Shown piece after piece: positions 2-32,770 of a DNA stretch of 35,256 bases. The stretch covers positions 1-35,256 of the IMG/VR virus record IMGVR_UViG_3300047380_000331. One strand, written 5' to 3'. A model generated the notes under the pieces. The model was given only the letters and a program-made list of their open reading frames with translations. It searched no databases and had not been told where the DNA came from. The translations under genes were made by a program, and so were the position numbers. The stretch's first letter is position 1; each line of letters begins with the position of its first letter. Source of the DNA: a virus.

Positions 2-226
2 GGGGGTGCTGTATTAGATTGGCACATGGATCCACCAACTGGTGATAGGTTTATAATTGTAGTTCAAGGATCACACGAAGTACAATTTGATGTTAAAGGT
101 AAGATAGTATCTCAGCAAATGGGTCCAGGTGAGATATGGTATATAAACAGTAACTGGTATCACAGGGTGATTAACAATAGCTTAGACGATCGTTATGCTA
201 TTTTAGGTTGCTATCTACATAAATAG
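2..226 (+). CDS. Aspartyl/asparaginyl beta-hydroxylase-like 2OG-Fe(II) dioxygenase, C-terminal part
   Basis: The reading frame is open to the left edge, so only the last 74 residues are visible and the true start lies outside. The fragment has the double-stranded beta-helix pattern of the AspH/LpxO-like family: an HxD at the start (WHMDPPTGDR), then an Arg, a 'VVQGSHEV' strand, 'GEIWYINSNWYHRVINNS' carrying the distal metal-ligand His, and 'DRYAILG' with the Arg expected to hold 2-oxoglutarate. In this family the enzyme hydroxylates Asp/Asn side chains or lipid acyl chains using Fe(II), O2 and 2-oxoglutarate. Dioxygenases of this fold are common accessory genes in marine T4-like phages, but the substrate cannot be told here. 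The stop codon TAG lies within the late promoter of the next gene. Confidence 0.7.
   Translation, partial: GGAVLDWHMDPPTGDRFIIVVQGSHEVQFDVKGKIVSQQMGPGEIWYINSNWYHRVINNSLDDRYAILGCYLHK
218..226 (+). promoter_or_regulatory. Phage late promoter (gp55-type -10 element)
   Basis: CATAAATAG, with ATAAATA at 219-225, lies 26 bases before the ATG of the 104-aa gene and overlaps the end of the preceding gene. It matches the T4 late promoter TATAAATA except for the first base. The same [CG]ATAAATA[GC] word recurs in four other intergenic regions of this window. No -35 element is needed for this promoter class. Confidence 0.7.
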
Positions 227-590: not shown

Positions 591-623
591 TTGCTGGTGT
601 AGGAATGCATCAGCAATTTTTTT
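591..623 (+). terminator. Rho-independent terminator
   Basis: An 11-bp stem pairs TTGCTGGTGTA (591-601) with TGCATCAGCAA (606-616), using G-U pairs, around a GGAA tetraloop. A run of T follows at 617-623. It lies 25 bases after the stop of the 104-aa gene and overlaps the stop codon of the convergent minus-strand gene. In the minus direction the hairpin is not followed by a clean U run, so it should work mainly on the plus transcript. Confidence 0.85.
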
Positions 624-1788
624 ATCCGTGTGTATCAATACGGTATCTAAGACTTTTACTTTCTTCAAAATCTAAATCTACTTCAGTGTCAGGTAACTTG
701 TTATCGTTATCTAAGAATTGAAATATTCCATAAGACTGTGTGCTTAACACAGGAGCCCATACATCCAAGTATCTAACAACATGATGTTTGATTTCATCTT
801 TGGGACCCACGTTGTATTGGAATCTTCCATACTCACTTGTCTCTTCTGCATCCATGCTCTTGTACAATAGCTTAGTGTCTGGTAAGTGTTTAGCGTTTTC
901 AATAGTAGTTAATGCATCTATACTCTTGTGTCCACTTAGCTTTAATAAGTTATAGCTTCTATGATATATTGGATCAAAGAATGTACTTGTAGTATATAAC
1001 TTATCAGCACCAAACTCTATTGCTGTACTGATAGCTTTACTACTGCCCAAACACTGTCCAAAGTATACAACTTTCTTTGTCTTAGGGAAATGTTCTTTAA
1101 TTAGTTCAGCATGCTTTTGTGCAGTTTCTTTTGGACTTTGTTCAAAGCCAAATGCAAACCCTGCTGTAACAGGTGTTCTCCAACTTAACACATTCATATT
1201 TGCTTTACGCCAACTTAGTACATAAGGATTGTACCAAGGAGTATAACTTTGATCTTGGAACCACCAACCAGCATCTGTCATGTTAACAATAGTAGTTTCT
1301 GAATCGTTGTCTACTATACTGTGGAAGCCACCATACTCTTTTATGTAACTTGGCTTTGGTTTATTAATTAGTTGTTGTACACGTTTCTCTGTGGTCCAAC
1401 TTTTATAAAATGCTCTAGGCTGTACTGTTTCTATGTTATGCCAGTTGCCTTGTATAATAAACATTTCTTCTTTGTTGTTGCAATACTTTGTAAACATAAC
1501 GTTACGTGGACTATCAAATACTACTTTAGTATAACACCTTGCTCTATAGTCATTGTTGTCTATTGTCCACTTTGTATTTTTAAACGGACTAGTAATCATA
1601 ATAATACAACTTTGACCAGGAAAGGGAACAAACTCGTGTAAGCTGTATTCGCCTGGGTCTTCTACTATTACTTTGGTTAATGTTGTATCGTTACTAGGAG
1701 AAAGAATTTCTTTCTCTAATCGTTCTTGTCTATAACGATATTCAAAGAAACTCCATTCCTTTCTGTATTCAAAATCAATTATCTTCAT
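622..1788 (-). CDS. Alpha/beta-hydrolase-like protein of unknown function, last gene of the modification cassette
   Basis: This encodes 388 residues with an ATG start that overlaps the previous gene by 14 bases. The C-terminal half resembles an alpha/beta-hydrolase core: a strand 'KKVVYFG' leads into G-Q-C246-L-G-S-S, the position of a nucleophile elbow (GxCxG or GxSxG), followed by a helix and then 'DKLYTTSTFFDP'. This recalls hydrolase-like proteins of bacterial capsule and glycoprotein export clusters (the XcbB/CpsF or Asp2 type), but I cannot align it with confidence. The N-terminal ~200 residues are beta-rich and tryptophan-rich. If C246 is the nucleophile it would be a Cys rather than Ser enzyme. 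It is translated last in a late-expressed cassette holding glycosyltransferases and a radical SAM enzyme, so a role in transferring or trimming a modifying group is possible. Confidence 0.8.
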   Translation of the reverse strand: MKIIDFEYRKEWSFFEYRYRQERLEKEILSPSNDTTLTKVIVEDPGEYSLHEFVPFPGQSCIIMITSPFKNTKWTIDNNDYRARCYTKVVFDSPRNVMFTKYCNNKEEMFIIQGNWHNIETVQPRAFYKSWTTEKRVQQLINKPKPSYIKEYGGFHSIVDNDSETTIVNMTDAGWWFQDQSYTPWYNPYVLSWRKANMNVLSWRTPVTAGFAFGFEQSPKETAQKHAELIKEHFPKTKKVVYFGQCLGSSKAISTAIEFGADKLYTTSTFFDPIYHRSYNLLKLSGHKSIDALTTIENAKHLPDTKLLYKSMDAEETSEYGRFQYNVGPKDEIKHHVVRYLDVWAPVLSTQSYGIFQFLDNDNKLPDTEVDLDFEESKSLRYRIDTHG

Positions 1789-2689
1789 ATAATTCCACTT
1801 GTGCTAATCCATCTTTTTCAATCATGTGATACCATTCTTCTAACGACATGTCATCGTTTGAATATGCATAACAAGGTTGTACACTATTAAAGTGTATTGG
1901 ATCTTTCCAACCTACATAGTCTTGTAGGTTATTGTTTACTACAAAGTCTTTGACTTTGGTTTCCCATTCAGCTCTCGTTTGTTTGTCATGTTTGTCTTTT
2001 GCAGCTTGAGTTGTTTTAACTAAGTTAATTGGATTCCAATGCCATATTGTTTCTGTACTTAAACTAAGTTGTGGTCTTATGTTTCCATTCTTAACTAGTT
2101 CTACATCATTGTCGTATGCGGCATGTAACAAATTCTTTCCTATAGTAGCATAACCAACATGTAGTGTTACTCTGTTAGGCATTGACGTGCTTACAAACAT
2201 CTTGCGTAGCTCTGAGTTAAGTACTACTCTGTCACTTATATTGTGTTCGCCTATATAAAATACTGTAAACGCAGCTTGCTTTCGGCCAAACAAAGCATTC
2301 TCAAGTTCGTGTACTAGGAAGTTAACTTCTTTAAGTAATCTTCTTATAACTTTAATGTCTTCGCTTAACTTTTGGTGGTCAGTATCATCTGACATGTATA
2401 CTTCTTCTACTATATGAAATGCTTCGTGTATTCTATTTAATGAATCTCTGTCTAGCGTATCTGGAATGTCAGGCATAGTTACATTCAATGCACTTACTTC
2501 TTTAACTAGCTTTTTTAGTTTTACTTCTATTGCATCTGCATCTGCAAACATATTAAAGCTACCATGAGATGGTCTAATATTCTTTTCACGTTTTTTAATT
2601 AGGTTAAACATTGTTTCGCCAACAATGTTATCTACAAAAGTAAAACTAGCCTTCTTACCTGAATTACTTACTAGGAATATTTTTGGCAT
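1775..2689 (-). CDS. Hypothetical protein with a His-rich helical middle, next to radical SAM gene
   Basis: This encodes 304 residues, overlapping the radical SAM gene upstream by 26 bases and the hydrolase-like gene downstream by 14, so translation is probably coupled. I do not recognise the family. The N-terminus 'MPKIFLVSNSGKKASF' looks like a strand-turn-strand. Residues ~50-135 are predicted mostly helical and contain 'RIHEAFHIVEE' (H88 and H92) and 'FLVHELENAL' (H127), spacing that could bind a metal within a helical bundle. The C-terminal third is rich in Trp, Asn and His and ends in an acidic tail. No membrane segment or signal peptide is seen. Its position suggests it works with the radical SAM protein, as a partner or substrate-binding subunit, but nothing in the sequence proves it. 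Confidence 0.8.
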   Translation of the reverse strand: MPKIFLVSNSGKKASFTFVDNIVGETMFNLIKKREKNIRPSHGSFNMFADADAIEVKLKKLVKEVSALNVTMPDIPDTLDRDSLNRIHEAFHIVEEVYMSDDTDHQKLSEDIKVIRRLLKEVNFLVHELENALFGRKQAAFTVFYIGEHNISDRVVLNSELRKMFVSTSMPNRVTLHVGYATIGKNLLHAAYDNDVELVKNGNIRPQLSLSTETIWHWNPINLVKTTQAAKDKHDKQTRAEWETKVKDFVVNNNLQDYVGWKDPIHFNSVQPCYAYSNDDMSLEEWYHMIEKDGLAQVELYEDN

Positions 2690-4292
2690 TCTTTGCGTCC
2701 TTTAATTGTTGCTTGTATTTTTCATATGTTACATCTGTCTCGGGTGCATCCCATATTTGTTGGTATTCTTTGATACAAATATTATAAAAGTCTGTATACT
2801 CTGGAAACACTTCTAGGAATGATTTATCTCTTCGTCTATCGTATTCCTGTACAAAGTTTCCAAATTTACTTCTTGTTAGTTTTAATTCCTTGTCATGATG
2901 TAGTCCATGTTCATCTAGTTGGTCTGCTTTTATAATACAATCAATAGTATTACGTTTTAGTTTTAAACATTCCCAATCTTCAAACTTGTTTGTTCCATAG
3001 AAGTCAGGTGTACCAACGTTCTCATACATAAACTCTAATGCAGGAATCAAATATTCTTTAATTAATTCTTTACTAGCTATAGCAGGATCTAACCAAGGTG
3101 GATGTCTAACATAAGGTGTATCAATACTAACACGACTATGCTGTTTACCTTTTCTTTCTTTGTAAGGTTTACTTCCTGGTACAGTTCCTAAGAAACCTTT
3201 TTCTTCAAACCATGCTGCCATTCCATTCCAGCTATACATTTGTTTAAGTTGTAATACCCATTCTAACAATTCTTTAAATGTACTTAAACTTAAAACATTA
3301 AACGCAGCCATAAAGTTAACACGTGTATCTTTTGTGTTAGCTAAAAAGTATTCTACATTTGTTTTAAACATCTTCCAGTCCATGCCATCACGTATGTAAT
3401 CACATCGATCACCTGTAGCTTCTGCACTAACAAACAAATCAAATTTCTTAACACAATTGTTCTCAGTTAAGTATTGTACTTTCTCTACAAACTCTTTCCA
3501 CTTGTCTCCTGGTGGACATGCATTAGTATTAATACTAAATTCTAGTTGTGGATTTGGATTCTCCATTAAGAATTCAATAACTTTAAATGTATCTTTAAGT
3601 AGTAAAGGTTCGCCGCCTGTAATACGAAACGTGTGCATATGTTTGTATGCTTCTGGAAACCATTTCCAAAATGCTTCAATATAAGGATTATGTTCTCTCT
3701 TTGGTATATGTTTTTCTGTTTCTTTGATTGGATTGTAATGATGATTTAATATATTGTAATCACCATTTTGATCAATGTCTTGTTGCCACTTACTACTAAA
3801 TGCTGGTCCACAATAAGCACATGCAAAGTTACAAGTGTTACCAAAGCTAACTTCTACATATGTAGGGAATATATCTTCGTCGCCATCTAAGTCTTTAATT
3901 TTATTATAGTGTGGGCTACTAAAGCTAGGCAAACTTTTAAGTACACGATCACTTATCTCTCCATTGTCTTCCACTCTCCAACAGAAGTCACACTCTTTAG
4001 GACGCTTGCCGTTAAGCATTTCCTTGCGTCTTTCTTTTTTAAACAATGTGTTGTGTAATGCACTAGGGTTATCTTTTAATTCTTCCAATGGTATCTTGTG
4101 TGCACCTGGGTGGTGACAACTATGTGTTAGTCCATTGCCTAAGTGCATTGTAACTTGTGTCCACTTAGCTAAACAAAAACCTGGACCTGTTTCATTAAGA
4201 AGGTTAAGCATCTTATTTCTATTTGCTGTACCAGGCAATGTCTCGCCACGGTCATCTCTAATCCAATCTACTTCTTCTAATTTTCTAGCCAT
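2664..4292 (-). CDS. Radical SAM protein with N-terminal twitch-like cysteine region
   Basis: This encodes 542 residues from the ATG at 4292. A TTG 15 bases upstream is open in frame but has no ribosome site. The radical SAM core shows C154-x3-C158-x2-C161 (CNFACAYC), which binds the [4Fe-4S] cluster that cleaves S-adenosylmethionine, and 'RITGGEPLL' with the GGE motif at 226-228. Ahead of the core is an unusual cysteine region, C59 ('HSCHHP') plus C101-x2-C104-W ('CDFCWRVEDNG'), like an auxiliary-cluster twitch/SPASM domain moved to the N-terminus. Phage and bacterial proteins of this build are known as N-terminal-twitch radical SAM proteins. Their reactions are mostly unknown; relatives modify peptides or sugars. 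The gene overlaps a 51-aa ORF by 8 bases and the 304-aa gene by 26, within a late-transcribed glycosyltransferase cassette. Confidence 0.93.
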   Translation of the reverse strand: MARKLEEVDWIRDDRGETLPGTANRNKMLNLLNETGPGFCLAKWTQVTMHLGNGLTHSCHHPGAHKIPLEELKDNPSALHNTLFKKERRKEMLNGKRPKECDFCWRVEDNGEISDRVLKSLPSFSSPHYNKIKDLDGDEDIFPTYVEVSFGNTCNFACAYCGPAFSSKWQQDIDQNGDYNILNHHYNPIKETEKHIPKREHNPYIEAFWKWFPEAYKHMHTFRITGGEPLLLKDTFKVIEFLMENPNPQLEFSINTNACPPGDKWKEFVEKVQYLTENNCVKKFDLFVSAEATGDRCDYIRDGMDWKMFKTNVEYFLANTKDTRVNFMAAFNVLSLSTFKELLEWVLQLKQMYSWNGMAAWFEEKGFLGTVPGSKPYKERKGKQHSRVSIDTPYVRHPPWLDPAIASKELIKEYLIPALEFMYENVGTPDFYGTNKFEDWECLKLKRNTIDCIIKADQLDEHGLHHDKELKLTRSKFGNFVQEYDRRRDKSFLEVFPEYTDFYNICIKEYQQIWDAPETDVTYEKYKQQLKDAKNAKNIPSK

Positions 4293-4440
4293 TGTCTTTG
4301 CTTTCAATATGTTTGTAATCTAAATACTGTGAACACCATTCGTAGAAGTTACGATCTGTATCCGGCCAGCACTCAGCAAATACTACATCATCTTTTATGT
4401 GTTGTCTGAATATATTTCTGACTTCTGTTTCGGTTAGCAT
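4285..4440 (-). CDS. 51-aa small ORF coupled to the radical SAM gene
   Basis: This encodes 51 residues. The ATG (4440-4438) follows directly after the TAG of the glycosyltransferase-like gene at 4441-4443, and its own TAG (4287-4285) overlaps the radical SAM ATG by 8 bases in another frame. It fills exactly the 148-base gap that would otherwise be the only sizeable hole in the cassette, which supports it being real. The protein starts MLTETEVRNIF, contains 'ECWPDTDRNFYEWC' with two cysteines and two tryptophans, and ends HIESKDNG. It is acidic and aromatic-rich with no signal peptide. No family is recognised. It could be a helper protein, or a peptide acted on by the adjacent radical SAM enzyme; both are inference. 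Confidence 0.7.
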   Translation of the reverse strand: MLTETEVRNIFRQHIKDDVVFAECWPDTDRNFYEWCSQYLDYKHIESKDNG

Positions 4441-5427
4441 CTATTCTAATGTGTCCTCTACATTCTCTTCCTTAACTTGTGCTCCAAGTCTACTAGGATT
4501 AATGTATACTTCTTTAAAGAAGCGAGAACCTTCTTTGCCTAAGTCTGCAATTTCTAAATCAAGTTTGCTACGTATTTCATATCCAAGTCTATTACTTTCT
4601 TTTTGCAATACGTTATAATTCCATTTCATTCCTGTACGTGGACATAGTTGATCGCTACCTTCTTCAAATTTTGGTAGTACGTTGTCGTGATAAAATTTTG
4701 TTAGCCAATCAAAGTCTCTAACATTTTTCCAATCCCAACTTTCTCTATCAACGTTTGTCATGTGACAACCAAGCCTAGCACCATATATTGCCCATAGTCC
4801 ATTCTCACAATCATCACCAACACTCATCCAAGTAAGTAAACGTTTATAATTTTTATTGTGTACCTTCTCTTTCAAGTACATAGGATCAACAATGTCGCCA
4901 TCAACTAATCCCATCTTAACACCTTCACGGAAGCCTGCACGCCATGCTTGTAATGGACTAGCATTATTCATTACATCGCAATATATATTATTCATTTGTA
5001 CGTAGTTGATATTCCAACAAAAGTCTACCTGTGCTCTTTTATCTCCAGCTGGTGCATTCTCATGTGTCTGCATTCCATACACAACAGGCTTTGGCCAACA
5101 TTTAATTCCACCATTACCATATACTAATCCATTGATAGTATTCTTACCTGCCCAACTAATAACATCAGTATCTCTAATACGTTTCATATCTATTTCAATA
5201 CCAAAGAAATCTTCTTTAACAATGTTGTCTGCATCAATTGTAATAAATCTATCTGTTTCAGCTAAGTCTGCTGCGGCCTTGTGAGCTGCGTCACTGCCAA
5301 ACACTCCGTGGCTGCGTTTAGCCCAGGGTGCTTTATTAATTAAGTCGTTAAAGTTTTCATCTGCATTAGGTTCGTCATAGCTAATGAAAACAATATCAAA
5401 TTCGTTGATGCTAGTCATTTGTGTCAT
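4441..5427 (-). CDS. GT-A-like glycosyltransferase-related protein
   Basis: This encodes 328 residues. The start at 5427 is supported by GGAGA eight to nine bases upstream; a second Met three codons later is possible. The N-terminus 'FDIVFISYDEPNADENF' followed by helices and 'RFITIDADNIV' gives a Rossmann-like nucleotide-sugar site with a DxD motif at D65-A-D67, the metal/UDP-binding signature of GT-A enzymes. Later segments rich in Trp and Asn ('ISWAGKNTINGLVYGNGGIKCW') resemble the acceptor half. A sugar donor and acceptor cannot be named. It overlaps the 336-aa gene by 17 bases and is followed without gap by the 51-aa ORF. Together with the two other GT-A-like genes upstream, it points to a glycan-building or decorating role in the late phase of infection. 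Confidence 0.82.
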   Translation of the reverse strand: MTQMTSINEFDIVFISYDEPNADENFNDLINKAPWAKRSHGVFGSDAAHKAAADLAETDRFITIDADNIVKEDFFGIEIDMKRIRDTDVISWAGKNTINGLVYGNGGIKCWPKPVVYGMQTHENAPAGDKRAQVDFCWNINYVQMNNIYCDVMNNASPLQAWRAGFREGVKMGLVDGDIVDPMYLKEKVHNKNYKRLLTWMSVGDDCENGLWAIYGARLGCHMTNVDRESWDWKNVRDFDWLTKFYHDNVLPKFEEGSDQLCPRTGMKWNYNVLQKESNRLGYEIRSKLDLEIADLGKEGSRFFKEVYINPSRLGAQVKEENVEDTLE

Positions 5428-6421
5428 TTATAAGTTCTCCGTTTGTGTTAACTGTTATATAATTGTTTTTGTAAAGTAATATTGGTTTGCTAGGCCAATC
5501 AAACCCAACACTTAATGTTGAATTCTTTTGTAGTAGTTGTCCACTTGTTAGTTCAAATGCACCAACAAGTTTATCAATGCTTCCATCGCATACTACAAAA
5601 CGTAATTTGTTCTTACCTTCAAAATAATATAGTTCATTCTCAGATATATCGCTACCTATGTGAAGTATATTATCTACTACGTTAATATTTATGTTCGACT
5701 TGTCTGCTACTGCGTTGCATTGTAAAACTCTTTTTGTTCCTAAGAACTGTTGATTTTTATTTAAGCTAGACTGCAATGTCCAACCGTAATTATTAAATAC
5801 TGATTTTGAATATAAACTTATGTTACTCCAATCAACCTTTGTTGATATGTCGCTGTTTAATTCTATTAGTTGTTTGCCGTTTTTAAATAATGTAAGTGGG
5901 TCAACTTCAACAATGTCAATTAAGTAATCTGGATCTAATTTCTTTGTAATAAAAATATCTAACAGTTTATTTTCTGATGTAGATATTTCTGTTATGTCGC
6001 TTAGGTTTTTAATATTTTTAATATTATCTTTGTTTACTTCCACTAGTACTTGATTATCTTCATACAATACTTTTACAAACATTTCTGATACTGTTGGATC
6101 AACTTCTGTACTAAATGGTTGTAGCTTATTATCAATTGATTCAATCATTAACGTTGTACTACGATAATCTATGTCATACTTTTCTTCTTGTATATCCCAT
6201 ATCATTCCATACTTCTTAATGCTTTGTGTACCTTTGATAATATGTTTACAAACTGGATTCCATGATTGTGTTTGCAATAGCCCATGTGGAACTTGTTGTA
6301 CAGAGTTACTAATCTTTTTAATCTTGCCAGTCTTTTGGTCAAAGAGAATATAATATTTTCTTTTATTATAATTTTCAGTCTTATCGCTTGGCTGTAATTC
6401 TGTAAGTGTCTCTGTGTTCAT
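5411..6421 (-). CDS. Hypothetical beta-rich protein, possible virion component
   Basis: This encodes 336 residues with ATG at 6419-6421, overlapping the upstream glycosyltransferase-like gene by 41 bases. The family is not recognised. It opens with 'KYYILFDQKTGKIKKISN' and closes with 'KPILLYKNNYITVNTNGEL', both strand-turn patterns typical of phage structural proteins. Between them are many short hydrophobic strands with frequent Asn, Ser and Lys and no helical bundle. No signal peptide or membrane segment is seen. It is flanked on both sides by glycosyltransferase-like genes, so it may be a fibre or decoration protein that carries the modification, but that is only a contextual guess. A perfect ATAAATA on the minus strand at 5686-5692 lies inside the gene. 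Confidence 0.8.
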   Translation of the reverse strand: MNTETLTELQPSDKTENYNKRKYYILFDQKTGKIKKISNSVQQVPHGLLQTQSWNPVCKHIIKGTQSIKKYGMIWDIQEEKYDIDYRSTTLMIESIDNKLQPFSTEVDPTVSEMFVKVLYEDNQVLVEVNKDNIKNIKNLSDITEISTSENKLLDIFITKKLDPDYLIDIVEVDPLTLFKNGKQLIELNSDISTKVDWSNISLYSKSVFNNYGWTLQSSLNKNQQFLGTKRVLQCNAVADKSNININVVDNILHIGSDISENELYYFEGKNKLRFVVCDGSIDKLVGAFELTSGQLLQKNSTLSVGFDWPSKPILLYKNNYITVNTNGELINDTND

Positions 6422-7250
6422 TTAATATTTCTTCTGTTAAAAACTCTTGTTCTCCATAATACAAGTTAGTAGACATTGCAAAGTTTTGTATTTTAACTTT
6501 AGCTCCCTTGCTTGACCATACATTTAATCTGTCTGTCCATTTGTCCCATATACCTATTACACCATCTGATAATGTTATAGGCATGTTAACTGTTTCAATT
6601 ACCTTTTTATTTTGTAATACTTCATCGTGCAGTACTATCGTATTAATAATGCTATGCATAATATCGTTACTATAATGTGCTGGCTTGTGTTGTTCTTTAA
6701 AATAATGAGCAAACACTTCTCTCCAGTTCTGCATAAACACATCAGCAAGTTTAAAATATGCTAAAGCTACATCTGTGTCGTGTTTAAAATAATACATGTT
6801 ACTGTGTACTGTGTTGAATCTATATTCGGCCCATAGTACGTTTAATTTTTTATTAACTAATGCGTTACCTTTAAAGTCTGTAGAGTGAGGGAAGAAGCAT
6901 ATGTCGTGATGATCAATTAAGTATTCCCATGCACTATCGTGATTCTCTTTTACTAAACTAGAACAATTGATTACCATACTATGGATGTACGGTGTACACC
7001 AATACAGTTGCCACTCGTTTGTTCCTGTAGTTTCGTTACTGCCATAAGGAAGATCAATCATGTAATCAAATACATCGTGATGGTGGTGAGGTATTCTATC
7101 CATATAGTTTGTTACAATAGCTACGCTAGCATCTTTGTTATGTATCTTAATACTGTATGCAAGTGCGGCCGCTTGTTCGTATTCAAAGTCTTGCATTGCA
7201 AGAATTAAATAACCTTTGTCTTCTTTTTCAACTACTAGTTCATTAGACAT
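6381..7250 (-). CDS. Glycosyltransferase-like protein lacking the DxD motif
   Basis: This encodes 289 residues from the ATG at 7250, which has GGAG eight bases upstream; a TTG three bases earlier is less likely. The fold matches the upstream gene: 'KGYLILAMQDFEYEQAAALAYS' is the nucleotide-binding strand and helix, 'ASVAIVTN' the second strand, and 'YIHSMVINCSSLV' aligns with the upstream protein's 'FEKTLLLDIDYIV'. Where the neighbour has D-I-D, this one has N95-C96-S97, so the acidic metal ligands are gone. The protein keeps its full length and the surrounding pattern, so it is not a decayed gene. It may be a non-catalytic partner, a donor-independent binding protein or a metal-independent enzyme. 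It overlaps the upstream gene by 8 bases. Confidence 0.82.
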   Translation of the reverse strand: MSNELVVEKEDKGYLILAMQDFEYEQAAALAYSIKIHNKDASVAIVTNYMDRIPHHHHDVFDYMIDLPYGSNETTGTNEWQLYWCTPYIHSMVINCSSLVKENHDSAWEYLIDHHDICFFPHSTDFKGNALVNKKLNVLWAEYRFNTVHSNMYYFKHDTDVALAYFKLADVFMQNWREVFAHYFKEQHKPAHYSNDIMHSIINTIVLHDEVLQNKKVIETVNMPITLSDGVIGIWDKWTDRLNVWSSKGAKVKIQNFAMSTNLYYGEQEFLTEEILNEHRDTYRITAKR

Positions 7251-8139
7251 CAAACATCTCCATTAAGTTTGGCAAGGCTCTGCCTAATGCTCGTTTGTTC
7301 ATAACATGAACATCGCTTTTTGATTTTACTAAAATGTTTTTCCATTGTTCTCTAGGACTGTGTGCTAAAAATACCCAGTCAGTTAAACTATCTGATTCTA
7401 TTATGTCATCCTTTTGACTCATGTTGTACATTGAAGTATTATCAAAGTTTCCTAGCATATCATGTTCGCCAGTCATACCAGACAGTATGTGTACTGCAAT
7501 ACTAACACAATAATCAGTACGGAATAATTTACTTGGGAAGTTATATAAGTATTGATAGAATTCATAATTGTCTGCAACGTGAGACCATGTATCAAAAAAC
7601 ATTTTACTAAAGTCACTTCTATCAAAGTATACAACTGTACTCCACCACATCTTAATACCAGCGTCATATAAGAAACGCTCTCTATCAGCAGGAAGTTCAT
7701 TACGTAATGTTAATGCATTATCATACATACACACATTATGATCACCCTCAAAGTATTTTAATAATTTATCTGACTTAACAATATAGTCAATGTCTAACAG
7801 TAATGTTTTTTCAAACGGACTGTATTCATAAATTTTATGTTTGTTACTGTTATTAAACTGTGCAGAAAACTCTGTCCAAGGACTGTCATAGTGTCGTCTT
7901 GCATTTGATTTCATTTCGTCTTTAGTTACAACTATATAATCAAAGACTTCTTCAACAACTTCTGATGGGTTACTTTGTTCTAGCCAAGCTTCTGATCCTT
8001 CATCAGTAATCAAGCACACTGGTAAGTTCAAGTATTTTTTAACATACTTGCCAGCTAGCAATGCCATTCTTACATAATCAAGTTGGTCGTTGTTGTAAGC
8101 AAAGAAACAAACACCCTTTGGAGCTGCGTATTCAGTCAT
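7243..8139 (-). CDS. GT8-like glycosyltransferase (GT-A fold, DxD intact)
   Basis: This encodes 298 residues from the ATG at 8139, which overlaps the stop of the upstream gene as TAATG; an in-frame TTG six bases earlier is open but unneeded. The N-terminal 'VCFFAYNNDQLDYVRMALL' and 'LPVCLITDEGS' form the nucleotide-sugar-binding half. 'FEKTLLLDIDYIV' carries the DxD at D116-I-D118, in the place and context typical of GT8-like retaining transferases, and 'DVHVMNKRALGR' near the C-terminus may supply another ligand His. Such enzymes move a sugar from a nucleotide-sugar donor to an acceptor. The acceptor is unknown. It is second in a late operon and is paralogous to the next gene, in which the DxD is lost. 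Confidence 0.87.
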   Translation of the reverse strand: MTEYAAPKGVCFFAYNNDQLDYVRMALLAGKYVKKYLNLPVCLITDEGSEAWLEQSNPSEVVEEVFDYIVVTKDEMKSNARRHYDSPWTEFSAQFNNSNKHKIYEYSPFEKTLLLDIDYIVKSDKLLKYFEGDHNVCMYDNALTLRNELPADRERFLYDAGIKMWWSTVVYFDRSDFSKMFFDTWSHVADNYEFYQYLYNFPSKLFRTDYCVSIAVHILSGMTGEHDMLGNFDNTSMYNMSQKDDIIESDSLTDWVFLAHSPREQWKNILVKSKSDVHVMNKRALGRALPNLMEMFDV

Positions 8140-8486
8140 TACCAATCCATTACTTTTTTAATGTTACGTGCTTTCTTTAGCTTTTCGTTTTCAATTTCGA
8201 ACTCAGTGGTAGCACTTGTATATGCATCCACGAGTTTATCAAATAATTCTTGTAAACTTCTAACTGTAATAGGATTTTGTTTACTATCAATTACAATAAA
8301 CTGTTTGTGTTCTAGATCAATTAAGGTTTTAATAAACCCAATAGTTTCATGATCAGCTTTAAACACTCCGCCTAAGTGGTGTACAATTTGTAATTGTTCT
8401 ACTCTATTACGAATATTACGCTTTTGGTTGTTAATTGTTAAGGCATAATTACTAAACTCTAATGCCTTTTCAAGTCTTTCGTCCAT
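8139..8486 (-). CDS. 115-aa conserved-looking helical protein, first gene of the late cassette
   Basis: This encodes 115 residues with a strong AAGGAG ribosome site just upstream of the ATG at 8486. It lies 40 bases downstream of a late promoter. The sequence looks helical at both ends: an N-terminal helix 'DERLEKALEFSNYALTINNQKRNIRNRVEQL' region and a C-terminal charged helix 'TEFEIENEKLKKARNIKK' that could form a coiled coil, with a short beta part around 'QFIVIDSKQNPITV'. No family or catalytic motif is recognised. Its stop overlaps the start of the GT8-like gene (TAATG). A small adaptor or assembly factor is plausible; the function is not known. Confidence 0.85.
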   Translation of the reverse strand: MDERLEKALEFSNYALTINNQKRNIRNRVEQLQIVHHLGGVFKADHETIGFIKTLIDLEHKQFIVIDSKQNPITVRSLQELFDKLVDAYTSATTEFEIENEKLKKARNIKKVMDW

Positions 8487-8525
8487 AGACTACTCCTTCA
8501 TATAATTATATATGTATATAATAAA

Positions 8526-8534
8526 CTATTTATC
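8526..8534 (-). promoter_or_regulatory. Phage late promoter for the glycosyltransferase/radical SAM cassette
   Basis: The minus strand reads GATAAATAG here, with ATAAATA at 8527-8533. It lies in the 80-base gap between the appendage genes and the cassette, about 40 bases before the first ATG. The region between promoter and start is almost pure A/T followed by AAGGAG. No hairpin terminator is visible after the upstream gene, so read-through from that operon may add to expression. Confidence 0.72.
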
Positions 8535-8566
8535 GAATTTTGTCAATGGTGATTTGTTGTTGATTT

Positions 8567-10129
8567 TTAGTTAGTTCTGTTGTTTTTAAACTTATGAGAA
8601 CCATATCCGCTATTCCATTCTGCGTCTGGATCATTATTTGATTGTTTAACTTCGTCTGCTCTACCAGCTCCTGTTCCAACACCTGTTGCTGTAAACGTAG
8701 TGCCAACTGTACTGTCAGCAGCACCAACTAATGTAAAGTCTGTGTCTGTAGCAGTTGATAATGTAACTGTACCTGTTGTATCATCTGTAAGCGTAGCTGT
8801 AAACACTGTACCAATGTTATTATCAGCAGCTCCAAGTTTAGTAAAGTCTGTTGTACCAATTGTTTTAATTGTGTATGTTTCACCTGTTTCAATTCTAGTT
8901 GCTGGTATTTCATGATTAACAGAAACAATTGTATATTGTGTTCCTACCTTAAAGTGTCCAGCTGGTACATTTAATAACGTTGTACCTACCCAGTCATCGT
9001 TAATGCTTGCATCTAATTGTATTCCTGATGCAAGATCAACTTTATTCCAAGGTGTTTCTTCTGTAATGATAGGTGCTGTTCTTTCAGCAAACCTATATAT
9101 AGTTCCACTGTTAGCAGTCATATAACTTTCATTACCATCACCTGCTGTAGGAGCTTGTGTTGGATTAACCCAACCTGAATATAATTTTATAGGTTGTGTG
9201 ATTGCAAATGTATCATCTTCATCTTCAATTAGGTTAACTCTAACATATACGTTAAATGTTCCACCTACTTCGTCTGCTTTAATTTGTAATTGAATTCTTC
9301 TACTGTTGTATTCACTGTATACATAAACATATGCATATTCGTATTCGCCTTGTGCTCCGGCAAACTTAAATACACCTGCATCTAAGATAGTACTAAAGTC
9401 TTGTCCAAATGCAATACCATTGTAAAAGCCTTTTGGACTAACAGTACTTGTAGATAATATATCGTAAACATTGTCTGCAACTACTTTACAGTTTTCTGCA
9501 CCAATTCTAATACTGTCAAATTGATTAAACACTTGTCTCCAAACATCATTACCAGGAGGACCACCTGGGTCCATTTCTAATTCTAATGTTAACTCACCGC
9601 CACTATTAAAAAAGTGTCTAGCTTCGTTATAATCTGTAAAAGAAAACTTATGTACAATTGATAAGTCTTCGTCCCATGCTTGAGTGTTTATTGATACAAG
9701 TCTATCCTTATCCCAATCTGACCAATCAACTGCATACTTATTATTTTCTATATTAGTAATTTTTGTTATTACATTATTATATTGTGTAGGTGACAACGGT
9801 GCTGATGTTGCTTTTATAAGATCACCAATAGCCATTTTTATTAATAAGTTTGCTGGCACATCACTTATGTGATACTGCCCAGCATTTACTTGTGCTATTG
9901 CTTGGTTAAAAATATCTGCTGTAATTAGTTGTCCAGTAACTGGTACTGGTGATAACGTTGCAGTTGGTTGTCCCCAACCAAATCGTCTATCATCTGTTGT
10001 TGAACTATGATCGGAATCATATGAATATGATCCACCGGCCCAAATCTCATTATAATAATTCATAAGATCTGTCATGTGTGTGGCATCAATAACGGTGCCT
10101 GTTAAAACTGTAGCCGGCTTATTGGGCAT
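8567..10129 (-). CDS. Virion structural protein with C-terminal repeats (tail/baseplate appendage)
   Basis: This encodes 520 residues; the ATG follows the preceding stop directly (TAAATG). It resembles the large appendage proteins of marine T4-like phages: an Asn/Trp-rich N-terminal part ('MNYYNEIWAGGSYSY'), a middle with 'EARHFFNSGGELTLELEMDPGG' that recalls a motif common in cyanophage structural proteins, and a beta-rich body. The C-terminus carries two copies of the fibre repeat 'TDFTKLGAADNNIGTVFTA' / 'TDFTLVGAADSTVGTTFTA' at about residues 425-490, then a short polar tail ending in 'HKFKNNRTN'. Such repeats are common in phage fibres and often vary in number. It is the last of a three-gene unit transcribed from the late promoter at 11681. 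Role is inferred as a tail-fibre or baseplate-attached protein. Confidence 0.8.
   Translation of the reverse strand: MPNKPATVLTGTVIDATHMTDLMNYYNEIWAGGSYSYDSDHSSTTDDRRFGWGQPTATLSPVPVTGQLITADIFNQAIAQVNAGQYHISDVPANLLIKMAIGDLIKATSAPLSPTQYNNVITKITNIENNKYAVDWSDWDKDRLVSINTQAWDEDLSIVHKFSFTDYNEARHFFNSGGELTLELEMDPGGPPGNDVWRQVFNQFDSIRIGAENCKVVADNVYDILSTSTVSPKGFYNGIAFGQDFSTILDAGVFKFAGAQGEYEYAYVYVYSEYNSRRIQLQIKADEVGGTFNVYVRVNLIEDEDDTFAITQPIKLYSGWVNPTQAPTAGDGNESYMTANSGTIYRFAERTAPIITEETPWNKVDLASGIQLDASINDDWVGTTLLNVPAGHFKVGTQYTIVSVNHEIPATRIETGETYTIKTIGTTDFTKLGAADNNIGTVFTATLTDDTTGTVTLSTATDTDFTLVGAADSTVGTTFTATGVGTGAGRADEVKQSNNDPDAEWNSGYGSHKFKNNRTN
8660..8890 (-). repeat. Two tandem fibre-type repeats within the 520-aa structural gene
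   Basis: Two units of about 35 residues share the pattern TDFT-x-(L/V)-GAAD-x3-GT-x-FTAT. At DNA level the two copies keep 'aaagtctg' and 'cagcagc(t/a)cca' blocks about 110 bases apart. Repeats of this kind are known from many phage fibre proteins. They also open the other minus frames locally, giving spurious ORFs. Confidence 0.7.
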
Positions 10130-11053
10130 TTACTTTACTCCAACGATAACTTCGATAGTACCTGCGTCTTCGCTTGACTTTGATTCTAATGCTCTGCCTA
10201 TTACATGTTTCCATGTATATTCATCAACATTAATATCCGCTGACATTCCATGTCCTTCTGTATCACTTGAGCAAATTCTATCACCCTTGTCAACTTTTCC
10301 AACAACTTTACAAGGAACTCTTCCTAGTAATGCTACACCCACTGCAAATTTACTACCTGCGTTTAGTTTTGCATTCATTAGTAATGCTGGGTCTGTTGTT
10401 ACAACTCCTAATACTTTAGGATCTTTTTGATGTAATGATTGTGTTACTTCTTCTGCTCCACCACCATCGCTTAACATAATTAATGTTCCTGCTTCAAACG
10501 GTTGGTCTGCTGTATACATTTCTGCAACGTCAGCATACTGTGCGTGTGTTGCTGTTCCGTGGAACTTCATTGCAGATCCTGTTACTGTATTAAGATTAAT
10601 ACCTGTGTTAATAGTTGCTGTATTACCTGCACCATTATCTAAAAAGTATTGATGATAATCTGTTTCTGTTGTTGCAATTGCCCATGCTGTTGTATCCGAA
10701 CTTGTTATAGTTACTGGAATAGCGTTAGCACGTGTTACATAAACTGAATGAGCATTGCCATTTGTATCTAAAATTGATACAACACCTGTGCCTGCGTCAA
10801 TGCCTAGCCATGTAGTATTATGGTAGACGTTCAATGTTTTTGTACTTGGTTTCCACCAATGCTGTCCTTCAATTGGACTAGTTGGCGCTGTTTCGCTTGC
10901 AAAGTTTTCTAGTAAGCTGACTGAGTTCTGTGCTATAGCTTCACCATAACCAATATAGTCTTTACCTACTAAACGCAAGCTAGTTTCTACATTAAGGGTA
11001 TCATCAGCTACTGTGACTGTTGTACCATTGTATTTGTTAATTGTATATGCCAT
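10130..11053 (-). CDS. Virion structural protein, tail-fibre-like
   Basis: This encodes 307 residues. AGGAG sits seven bases before the ATG and the gene begins 2 bases after the 201-aa gene. The N-terminal segment ('KDYIGYGEAIAQNSVSLLENF' region, then 'PIEGQHWWKPST' and 'LNVYHNTTW') is the kind seen in fibre-like proteins of T4-like marine phages. The C-terminal half has 'HAQYADVAEMYTAD', 'FEAGTLIMLSDGG', 'KVLGVVTTDPALLMNA' and 'VGVALLGRVPCKVVGKVDKGD', which resembles the trailing domain found at the end of fibres and related to intramolecular-chaperone (peptidase G2-like) domains. No autoprocessing has been demonstrated here. It probably forms part of a baseplate appendage with its two neighbours. 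Confidence 0.8.
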   Translation of the reverse strand: MAYTINKYNGTTVTVADDTLNVETSLRLVGKDYIGYGEAIAQNSVSLLENFASETAPTSPIEGQHWWKPSTKTLNVYHNTTWLGIDAGTGVVSILDTNGNAHSVYVTRANAIPVTITSSDTTAWAIATTETDYHQYFLDNGAGNTATINTGINLNTVTGSAMKFHGTATHAQYADVAEMYTADQPFEAGTLIMLSDGGGAEEVTQSLHQKDPKVLGVVTTDPALLMNAKLNAGSKFAVGVALLGRVPCKVVGKVDKGDRICSSDTEGHGMSADINVDEYTWKHVIGRALESKSSEDAGTIEVIVGVK

Positions 11054-11055
11054 GT

Positions 11056-11661
11056 TTAAACTCCTGCTCTAATTCTTAGAGTATATATAATCTCTAATTT
11101 TCTATTTTTACTTTTTTGGATAGGATGAAAAATTAAGTGTGTTAAAAAGTTACCAGTGCCGTCAACTAAACCAATTTCGTCAAATACGAAATTACTAGCT
11201 GTATCAAAGTCACTTGCATTATCAAGTGCCTGAGCATCTGCTGGAAATCCATAATCTAATACTGTATTGCATACTAGATCTGAATATGGTTGGTTTGCTG
11301 TATCTGTTACGTAAAAGTTTGATACGTTAACTTGTAAGTCTACTGGATTACTTGGATCTGTATTATCTTTACTAGCTGTATACAAAGAACCCGAAGTACC
11401 TGTTACTTGAGGTGCATTATATGTTATAGCTCCTGTACCCGAGTCAATCGATGTACCACCATAACCAAACGCTAGTTTATTAATAATATAACTGTTTCCA
11501 CCACTATTATTCACTCCACCCATTGCATGAGCTACTGCTAATGCAAAATTTTGGAAATTAATTGCGTTGTGTTTGTCGAGTAGTACTTCACCTGTATCAA
11601 AATCTTTGATTAAAACGTGACCTTCCACTGCAACTTTTGATTTTTCATTTAATGTTTTCAT
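11056..11661 (-). CDS. Putative virion structural protein (tail/baseplate)
   Basis: This encodes 201 residues, first gene after a late promoter, with AAGGA about ten bases before the ATG at 11661. The N-terminal 'VEGHVLIKDFDTGEVLLDKHNAINFQNF' region, a strand pair followed by 'NAI.FQN' and an Ala-rich helix, is a pattern I associate with small tail or baseplate proteins of marine T4-like phages. The rest is Gly/Asn/Asp/Thr-rich beta structure and the end 'LEIIYTLRIRAGV' looks like a final strand. No convincing gp8 similarity is seen, although gp8 would be expected somewhere near. The specific role is unknown. Confidence 0.75.
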   Translation of the reverse strand: MKTLNEKSKVAVEGHVLIKDFDTGEVLLDKHNAINFQNFALAVAHAMGGVNNSGGNSYIINKLAFGYGGTSIDSGTGAITYNAPQVTGTSGSLYTASKDNTDPSNPVDLQVNVSNFYVTDTANQPYSDLVCNTVLDYGFPADAQALDNASDFDTASNFVFDEIGLVDGTGNFLTHLIFHPIQKSKNRKLEIIYTLRIRAGV

Positions 11662-25350: not shown

Positions 25351-25896
25351 TTATGATTGCAAAATTAGCTTATCTTCTGGCCATTGTACATAATCTTGCC
25401 ATGCTATATCGGGAATTGATAAGAAATGACGCTTGTTTGAATAGTTGATTTGATGCCATGTAGGAATAATTGGCTTCTTTTTGGGAAGTGGATGTGCGTT
25501 ATTGCTCTTCTTTACATTGCAAGGACCGCATGCTGTAACTGTATTAACCCAAGTTAGTCTTCCTCCTGCTGACTTTGGTATAACATGATCTAGTGTAAGT
25601 TCGTTGTAAGCAAAGTTATTCCCACAATATTGACACGTATAGTCATCTCTAATGTAAACATTACGTCTAGTAAACTTGGCTCTAGTAGGTTGTCTGTGAT
25701 ATGTATTAAGCATAACAATACTTGGGAATGGAATAGTTACTGTAGGTGACCGGAGGAATTGGTTATCATAATTTTTAATAACATGTACCTTGTCACCCCA
25801 CAATGCCTTGACTGCGTTCTGCCAACTAATCGTGCTCAACGGAAATATAGATAACGGGTTTCCATCTGCGTTAAGTAAGAGTACGGCGTGATTCAA
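25351..25896 (-). CDS. HNH endonuclease
   Basis: This encodes 181 residues. The start is a TTG at 25896 (MNHAVLLLNADGNPL), backed by AAGGA seven to nine bases upstream and by the match of this N-terminus to family members that begin '(h)AVLvLNADg.PLs'; no ATG lies close by. The HNH domain is complete: C88-x2-C91 ('CQYCG'), the catalytic D103-H104 in 'LTLDHVIPKSAGG', N118 in 'TWVNTV' and C123-x2-C126 ('CGPCN'), giving a zinc-stapled beta-beta-alpha-metal nuclease. It cuts DNA in a metal-dependent way. Free-standing HNH genes are frequent in T4-like phages, where they may act as homing or packaging-linked nucleases. It lies between baseplate genes and is flanked by the two largest gaps of the operon (45-46 and 33 bases), which suggests later insertion. 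Confidence 0.93.
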   Translation of the reverse strand: MNHAVLLLNADGNPLSIFPLSTISWQNAVKALWGDKVHVIKNYDNQFLRSPTVTIPFPSIVMLNTYHRQPTRAKFTRRNVYIRDDYTCQYCGNNFAYNELTLDHVIPKSAGGRLTWVNTVTACGPCNVKKSNNAHPLPKKKPIIPTWHQINYSNKRHFLSIPDIAWQDYVQWPEDKLILQS

Positions 25897-31852: not shown

Positions 31853-32770
31853 ATGAAAACACCAAAACAGTTTTACCTAACAAACAAAGATTTGTTAAGA
31901 GAAATACACAGTAGTAAGATGTCTTATTGCTGGGCACGTGATGATCAATACACTCATTATGATATTATTGTTGAAGGCTTAGATGCAATAACTAAGGAAG
32001 TAACGGCAGAAGCTAAACAGAATAGAGCAAAGCGATTACAAAAACTAGCACATGAAGCTGAAGTTAAACGATGGGAACAGGGCCTAACAGGCAAAAAAAC
32101 TAAACCCAGGGCAGCAGACTTTGCAGTAGATGTTGATACTATTCGAGACGATGATATTGTGGTTAGAGTAATGACATTTGGTCATGTCCCACAAGAAAAC
32201 AGAAAAAACAAACCAAAAACAGAAGCAGATTTACATGCTAAATGTAACTTCCCACCATTTAAGCATTATGCGTATATTGAAGGCGAGCTAGAAGAAGTAG
32301 CTCGTAGTCATTGGGTAGGTGGTAGAGATAACGGTCATTTTAGTGTAGGCCATGGAAAAACAAACGATAGACTAGCTCGTATGTATATTAAACTATGTGA
32401 GAGATATAGTATGCGTGGTAACTGGCGTGGATACACTTATGTAGACGAAATGCGTGGACAAGCATTATTACAGTTAGCACAAATAGGATTACAGTTTAAT
32501 GAATTTAAATCACAAAATCCATTTGCATATTATACTGCCGCTATTAACAATAGTTTTACAAGAGTTCTTAATTTAGAAAAACGTAGTCAGAACATTAGAG
32601 ATGACTTATTAGAAGAAGAAGGTTTGAATCCAAGTAATACTAGAACATTTAATGCTGAGTGGAAAGCACATGAAGAACGTGAGCAAGCTCTTAAAGCACA
32701 GAATCCAACACTAAAGAAAACAGTATTAATTGAAGACAGCGAACCTCAATCAGAACCAACTGGAGAATAA
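31853..32770 (+). CDS. gp55: Late-transcription sigma factor gp55, with long insertion
   Basis: This encodes 305 residues. The N-terminal 'FYLTNKDLLREIHSSK' matches the first helix of T4 gp55, and residues ~175-250 ('MYIKLCERYSMRGNWRGY', 'NPFAYYTAAINNSFTRVLNLEKRSQNIRDD') match its sigma-like core polymerase and -10 binding region. Between them lie about 130 extra residues (~35-170) rich in Lys, Arg, Glu and His, so the protein is far longer than T4 gp55 (185). T4 gp55 ends in a hydrophobic sliding-clamp motif (LDFLYE); here the end is 'DSEPQSEPTGE' with no such motif. The protein should direct host polymerase to the ATAAATA promoters seen here. The gene is preceded by a perfect sigma70 promoter and joined to gp47 by TAAATG. 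Confidence 0.9.
   Translation: MKTPKQFYLTNKDLLREIHSSKMSYCWARDDQYTHYDIIVEGLDAITKEVTAEAKQNRAKRLQKLAHEAEVKRWEQGLTGKKTKPRAADFAVDVDTIRDDDIVVRVMTFGHVPQENRKNKPKTEADLHAKCNFPPFKHYAYIEGELEEVARSHWVGGRDNGHFSVGHGKTNDRLARMYIKLCERYSMRGNWRGYTYVDEMRGQALLQLAQIGLQFNEFKSQNPFAYYTAAINNSFTRVLNLEKRSQNIRDDLLEEEGLNPSNTRTFNAEWKAHEEREQALKAQNPTLKKTVLIEDSEPQSEPTGE

Follow-up and report, generated by a model that had tools for sequence, protein, structure and literature searches.

In this work, we have analysed an island of glycosyltransferase (GT) and radical S-adenosylmethionine (SAM) genes in a 35,256-bp linear IMG/VR fragment (IMGVR_UViG_3300047380_000331; the whole of it is here called the window) from a T4-type phage encoding the late sigma factor gp55, gp25, gp6, a 3378-aa virion protein and fibre-like genes, and have compared it with about 200 related loci. 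As an earlier note on this DNA had described, nine open reading frames (ORFs) lie on the minus strand, overlapping by 7–41 nt or abutting; we letter them A to I in the direction of transcription. Gene A (8139..8486; 115 aa) encodes a conserved protein with no convincing family match, genes B (7243..8145; 300 aa) and C (6381..7253; 290 aa) encode GT8/glycogenin-like paralogues, gene D (5411..6421; 336 aa) a tandem beta-sandwich (FN3/Ig-like) protein, and gene E (4441..5427; 328 aa) a glycosyltransferase of GT-A fold. They are followed by an orphan 51-aa ORF, F (4285..4440), by gene G (2664..4307, with an alternative ATG start at 4292; 547 aa), which codes for a radical SAM enzyme, and by genes H (1775..2689; 304 aa) and I (622..1788; 388 aa). 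The tail-fibre/virion genes T520, T307 and T201 (520, 307 and 201 aa; 8567..11661, minus strand), which match phrog_11259 and phrog_19602 (tail fibre) and belong to families c3/c4, precede the island.

Our results show that genes A to E are a fixed core, placed directly behind tail-fibre-like genes in essentially all relatives, and that genes F to I are exchangeable cargo. Viral loci were collected by anchoring on G (80 loci), B (32) and E (80), the anchoring on E being made without reference to G or B; contigs partly recur between these sets, many of them are fragments, and genes in the relatives were called as greedy longest ORFs. Upstream of E, in the 52 E-anchored loci with at least 5.5 kb on that side that were left after removal of repeats identical over the compared E segment, B and the fibre families c3/c4 were each found in all 52, A and D in 50 each, C in 48, and A, B and C jointly in 46. 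Downstream, within 6 kb beyond E in 55 loci, 32 carried a radical SAM gene of any kind and 18 at least three, 26 had a second E, 6 a member of the H family and none gene I. The order of the core is near-invariant in viral contigs from about 90% identity in E to below 50%, and some layouts stop after one or two further copies of E, with no radical SAM gene. Since the loci are not phylogenetically independent, these counts show conservation and not independent events. The nine genes had been taken for one system, making and attaching a glycan or modifying a peptide on the virion, with co-conservation as the proposed check. A glycan system is supported, and A to E do travel with the fibre genes; the single nine-gene system is ruled out by the co-occurrence data from the E-anchored loci and by our own direct scans with the 304-aa (H) and 388-aa (I) proteins, which gave no additional relatives of either.

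The cargo of the window is led by gene G, whose product was rightly named as an N-terminal-twitch radical SAM enzyme: it scores 302.9 bits with NF033640, whose curated cut-off is 170, covers positions 3–398 of the 398 in the model, and bears both the CxxxCxxC motif (159/163/166) and the N-terminal auxiliary-cluster cysteines C45, C64, C106 and C109, all conserved in at least 93%. Genes H and I belong to no recognised family. At profile level gene H has a relative in the c39 cargo family (hhalign 97.6%), and it has conserved H88, H127 and E130 residues and a GYATIGK block, while gene I is a rare cargo gene found besides the window in only two lineages (L003 and L005/L006), always directly after H. 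Of the alpha/beta-hydrolase likeness proposed for the gene I product only the GQCLGS motif is left, with GQCLG conserved in three gene I sequences; no Pfam, NCBIfam or PDB relative was found. The 51-aa ORF, previously counted as a cassette gene, is indeed present; as none of the loci searched holds a relative of it, it is perhaps not a gene. We found no support for it either as a conserved precursor of a ribosomally synthesised and post-translationally modified peptide (RiPP) or as the leftover C-terminal end of a radical SAM enzyme.

In the relatives, the cargo includes genes for a carbamoyltransferase, an epimerase, a UDP-glucose dehydrogenase-like protein, a cytidylyltransferase-cupin protein and a nucleotidyltransferase, further HAD, AcpS, DHFR and ThyA genes, and a weak nitroreductase match. 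The large records hold 1–15 matches to NF033640 each, and 6 of 15 such records also encode an A-type Fe-S carrier. In L136, L070, L112, L148 and other loci, N-terminal-twitch radical SAM genes stand in tandem arrays; L150–L163 and L165–L167 have three E copies in a row followed by a methyltransferase-like gene, without radical SAM; and in L007, L008, L012 and L128 E and the radical SAM gene are separated by a holo-ACP-synthase-like gene, which hints at a carrier-protein step in that subclade.

The proteins encoded by B and C had been read as paralogues with a GT-A-like fold. Their paralogy is clear (hhalign 99.5%, E 3.7e-23), but the DxD motif is gone from the 290-aa protein, where it has become NCS. 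In B it is intact (D118, D120) and kept in 120/120 non-redundant homologues, and a C-terminal histidine, H280, is conserved. The gene C profile matches glycogenin with an E of 4e-6 over profile positions 3–106, whereas that of gene B alone reaches only 1.2, so the assignment of B as a glycosyltransferase rests on its paralogue C and on its invariant DxD. Among 114 homologues of C, 76 have the DxD and 38 have lost it; in a FastTree phylogeny the window C falls within a 28-row clade with the motif lost in every member, and at least four to five changes of DxD state are needed overall. Against clear relatives, the omega of gene C is about 0.08–0.24, near-identical pairs being too close to judge, and omega ratios are rough throughout, with saturated dS in several pairs. 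Because the DxD has been lost and purifying selection persists, gene C in the window's clade probably encodes a non-catalytic partner, and the natural reading is that B and C would work as a heterodimer of an active and an inactive glycosyltransferase. The likeness to glycogenin and the GT8 family thus consists of the C profile match, the paralogy of B and the DxD of B; a C protein without DxD, in the window's clade, is where the two differ.

Structure prediction was run for the D and E proteins. The model of E (predicted local distance difference test, pLDDT, 90.7; predicted template modelling score, pTM, 0.90) had its best PDB matches, by Foldseek, among GT2-type GT-A enzymes (TarP, TarS, RmlT and SunS; E about 5e-4), and D65xD67 is invariant, in agreement with the GT-A-like protein with DxD seen before; no sequence relative of E was found in PDB, and no profile-level homology was detected between E and B/C. 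Judged by its model E is a GT-A enzyme, to which we assign no subfamily because the template modelling (TM) scores are low. E is the most conserved gene of the core and the most constrained (omega about 0.04–0.08). The 336-aa D protein was correctly described as beta-rich: its model is a multi-domain beta-sandwich (pLDDT 82, pTM 0.65). D is the fastest evolving and least constrained core gene (omega up to 0.33), and distant relatives carry a shorter version of it (hhalign 96–97%). For gene A, omega is 0.02–0.08 in most pairs.

When would these genes be expressed? The gap before gene A measures 80 nt and contains the promoter of the operon (8512..8552, minus strand), a sigma-70-type TTGACA-N17-TATTAT element (8546–8518) with 11/12 matches to the consensus, and a gp55-type ATAAATAGT (8533) nested in its spacer. 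A single gp55-type promoter had been proposed here, and ATAAATAGT is present at 8533(-), but it is nested in the sigma-70 element, the more widely conserved part; where a gp55-dependent late promoter would have a TATAAATA-like -10 and no -35, a TTGACA -35 is also present. The pattern TTGAC[AT]-15..19-TANNNT precedes A in 40/70 relatives and in 30/60 E-anchored loci (an earlier count gave 37/65, against a shuffle mean of 0.26 of 65). Before B, C, D, G, T201, T307 and T520 it was never found, and before E once in 112. The late motif TAAATAGT alone, without the sigma-70 element, occurs upstream of T201 in 15/32, and in a number of distant relatives a late-type motif is all that precedes gene A. 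Since the sigma-70 promoter is conserved, transcription by unmodified host RNA polymerase is predicted, and expression of the core from this host-type promoter is probably early. Going by these motifs, the core appears often to be arranged for host-type transcription, with the late motif an addition in the window's clade. The argument of the earlier note, from late expression to action during assembly, is undermined by this conserved promoter, which rules out late-only expression as the sole reading. The apparent late motif of the window phage, ATAAATAG/CT, precedes several structural operons, at 219(+), 25329(-), 31784(-) and, as the own late motif of the fibre genes T520/T307/T201, 11688(-).

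The data establish how the genes are ordered and conserved, their folds and families, the loss of the DxD and the promoter motifs; on this ground we infer a cytosolic, two-part glycan-modification island tied to the adsorption apparatus, with phage fibre proteins or D as acceptor, a proposal that we hold tentatively, with belief and doubt nearly balanced. We propose that A–E would act as a soluble transferase module attached to the tail-fibre operon. B would be an active GT8-type glycosyltransferase, C, inactive in the window's clade, most likely its heterodimer partner or a subunit positioning the acceptor, and E a separate GT-A transferase; D, with its beta-sandwich, would probably present or carry the acceptor, and A may have a minor, accessory role. 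Phage-specific chemistry would come from the cargo after E, in the window from the twitch radical SAM enzyme with H and I, and this cargo could change the sugar or the modified residue, so that related phages would differ in their decoration. The most likely acceptor would be a protein of the adsorption apparatus, either a fibre encoded upstream or D itself, which would receive its sugar in the host cytosol ahead of assembly. Thanks to the host-type promoter, the enzymes could exist before the late fibre proteins appear, and the nested late promoter could sustain their expression.

Downstream of E, a simple hydropathy scan found a transmembrane-like stretch in only 14 of 642 genes, and three such stretches in one; a search of 15 large contigs for a Wzx-type flippase gave no match, the control being positive in 13/14 genomes; and the fibre genes are tightly linked to the core. 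A full O-antigen assembly route was discarded on the absence of a flippase from these 15 contigs and the near absence of transmembrane proteins. Soluble enzymes with almost no membrane proteins and no flippase favour a cytosolic acceptor, and the tight coupling with fibre genes speaks for the adsorption apparatus; for these reasons we prefer glycosylation of fibres or of D to remodelling of the host surface, and rank virion fibres first and host surface glycans second as targets. That one or the other of the two is decorated with variable sugars is probable. The fibre-side protein encoded directly upstream has a Thr-rich C terminus, with up to 36% Ser plus Thr per 50-residue stretch. Further support comes from the glycan-tailoring genes in the cargo of relatives, namely those for the epimerase, the UDP-glucose dehydrogenase-like protein, the cytidylyltransferase-cupin protein, the nucleotidyltransferase and the carbamoyltransferase, and from the alphaproteobacterial homologues of E, which have glycosyltransferase and radical SAM genes in their neighbourhood.

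Several points weigh against this proposal. In overall Ser/Thr content the fibre proteins do not stand out from the other virion proteins of the window, and a glycan or a modified virion protein is so far only predicted, from the genes. The matches of D to FN3/Ig domains are weak, and the Foldseek TM-scores of E are about 0.3 despite a probability near 1. A host-type promoter suits an activity directed at the host at least equally, and linkage to fibre genes is also expected for enzymes that modify the receptor. Peripheral cytosolic transferases of lipopolysaccharide (LPS) synthesis work without transmembrane segments, so the scarcity of membrane proteins points to a cytosolic acceptor only suggestively.

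Much of this would fit a second explanation, that the island remodels the LPS or capsule of the host early in infection and so guards against superinfection, the glycosyltransferases acting on cytosolic lipid- or nucleotide-linked precursors and the cargo making unusual sugars. We regard it as a serious possibility on the unlikely side. The conserved sigma-70-type promoter predicts the early expression that it calls for, sugar-nucleotide enzymes are among the cargo, and glycosyltransferase genes, radical SAM genes and a gene with a weak match to sulfotransferases are found close to cellular homologues of E; the same role is proposed in PMC7029224 for GT8 genes beside the fibre genes of SAR11 myophages. 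It is weakened by the lack of a flippase in the 15 large contigs and of all but a few membrane proteins in the cargo, by the many distant relatives with a late-type motif alone before A, and by D, whose role it leaves unexplained.

The other explanations fare worse. That the nine are accessory genes without relation to each other, which merely piled up in a hypervariable island next to the fibre genes, is improbable for the whole: F to I do behave in this manner, and for them the explanation stands, but the order and adjacency of A–E, kept in almost all loci under strong purifying selection, largely refute it for the core. Hypermodification of phage DNA bases by the glycosyltransferases and radical SAM enzymes, as an escape from restriction, seems very improbable. 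DNA-hypermodification loci can also hold radical SAM, glycosyltransferase and carbamoyltransferase genes, the promoter is of early type, and some relatives have a thymidylate synthase gene in their cargo; this ThyA, however, belongs to the thymidylate synthase family and occurs in only 6/15 records, and the core is linked to fibre genes, not to replication genes. TET-based modification was set aside with no TET/JBP match in the 15 large contigs, weak evidence since the control was silent as well. Maturation by the radical SAM enzyme of a RiPP such as the 51-aa ORF, followed by glycosylation of the peptide, is scarcely credible: SPASM/twitch radical SAM enzymes often act on peptides and the small ORF stands directly before the radical SAM gene, but it is without relatives, and other loci with a radical SAM gene directly after E have no gap above 60 nt to fit such an ORF.

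A fibre-linked island with cassettes of glycosyltransferase and radical SAM genes is already known from pelagimyophages, whose host recognition cluster, as set out in part of Zaragoza-Solas et al. (2020; PMC7029224), is an island between VrlC and gp14 with fibre and glycosyltransferase genes. Similarly to the window, it is a hypervariable island of T4-like marine phages beside tail-fibre genes, with GT8 genes and with radical SAM cassettes gained and lost; that account of the cluster gives varied glycosyltransferases and describes no fixed core, whereas here a core of five genes has a fixed order. A T4-like environmental viral genome is reported in PMC5332604 with 12 radical SAM genes and an A-type Fe-S carrier, as in part of the present records, and the section concerned describes no link to a glycosyltransferase core, which is present here. 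In mycobacteriophages (Freeman 2023, as summarised in PMC12619734), glycans have been found on virion proteins; in the present island the genes are neighbours of fibre genes and of a radical SAM cargo. Within the open-licence literature of PubMed Central, what appears to be new is the fixed A–E core, its pseudo-glycosyltransferase, its promoter, and its absence, at tblastn sensitivity, from 50,697 phage records.

Gene E was confirmed in at least 590 IMG/VR stretches, yet queries with E, B, C-type and A proteins, distant forms of E and C included, gave no tblastn match in the 50,697 INPHARED phage records, so that no cultured relative of the module was found with them; radical SAM matches in these records were restricted to Vibrio phages K566 and K567, at 25% identity. 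With the module in hundreds of aquatic phage contigs and in none of these records, widespread phage glycosylation genes appear to be uncharacterised. Whether they amount to a new and widespread class of phage protein glycosylation, in which a fixed active/pseudo-glycosyltransferase pair and a GT-A enzyme would act on the phage's own fibres and up to about 15 swappable radical SAM or tailoring enzymes would set the type of glycan, is doubtful. If fibres are decorated, adsorption specificity would be tied to a swappable glycan under genetic control, and a role would be found for the arrays of radical SAM genes in marine phages; if the host surface is the target, the module would serve to exclude superinfection. 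Because the promoter is of early type, the timing of expression lends itself to testing.

Outside viral records, homologues of E at about 32–38% identity were found in high-GC alphaproteobacterial genomes and in one Paraburkholderia metagenome-assembled genome (MAG); those of Rhodobacteraceae type have radical SAM and glycosyltransferase genes and the weak sulfotransferase match nearby. In L123–L127 the cellular homologues are of about 430 aa and Rhodobacteraceae type, some of them near caspase-domain, glycosyltransferase and radical SAM genes. L114–L118, L121 and L125 are contigs labelled as bacterial MAGs (Gammaproteobacteria, Neomarinimicrobiota, Rickettsiales and others) with the phage fibre-core layout. 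Such low-GC contigs, with the same layout, are probably misbinned phage contigs.

As regards the rest of the window, the island lies after the gene for the 3378-aa virion protein (phrog_10938) and the fibre genes, and gp14 was not seen in the contig. The gp55 homologue is encoded at 31853–32770, and gp6 shares about 35% identity with its counterparts in PA5oct and other jumbo phages and about 37% with the one in Salicola phage SCTP-2. Moraphages, considered as a source lineage for their four core glycosyltransferases, were dropped because PMC12619734 places them outside the T4 group and the window has T4-type gp55, gp25 and gp6. In the baseplate region, between gp25 and the next gene, an HNH endonuclease gene (25351–25896, minus strand) probably codes for a homing endonuclease. 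Facing the cassette, a truncated plus-strand ORF (2–226) resembles a C-terminal region of cupin/2-oxoglutarate oxygenase type, and its relatives in L006 and L018 are likewise located downstream of the cargo.

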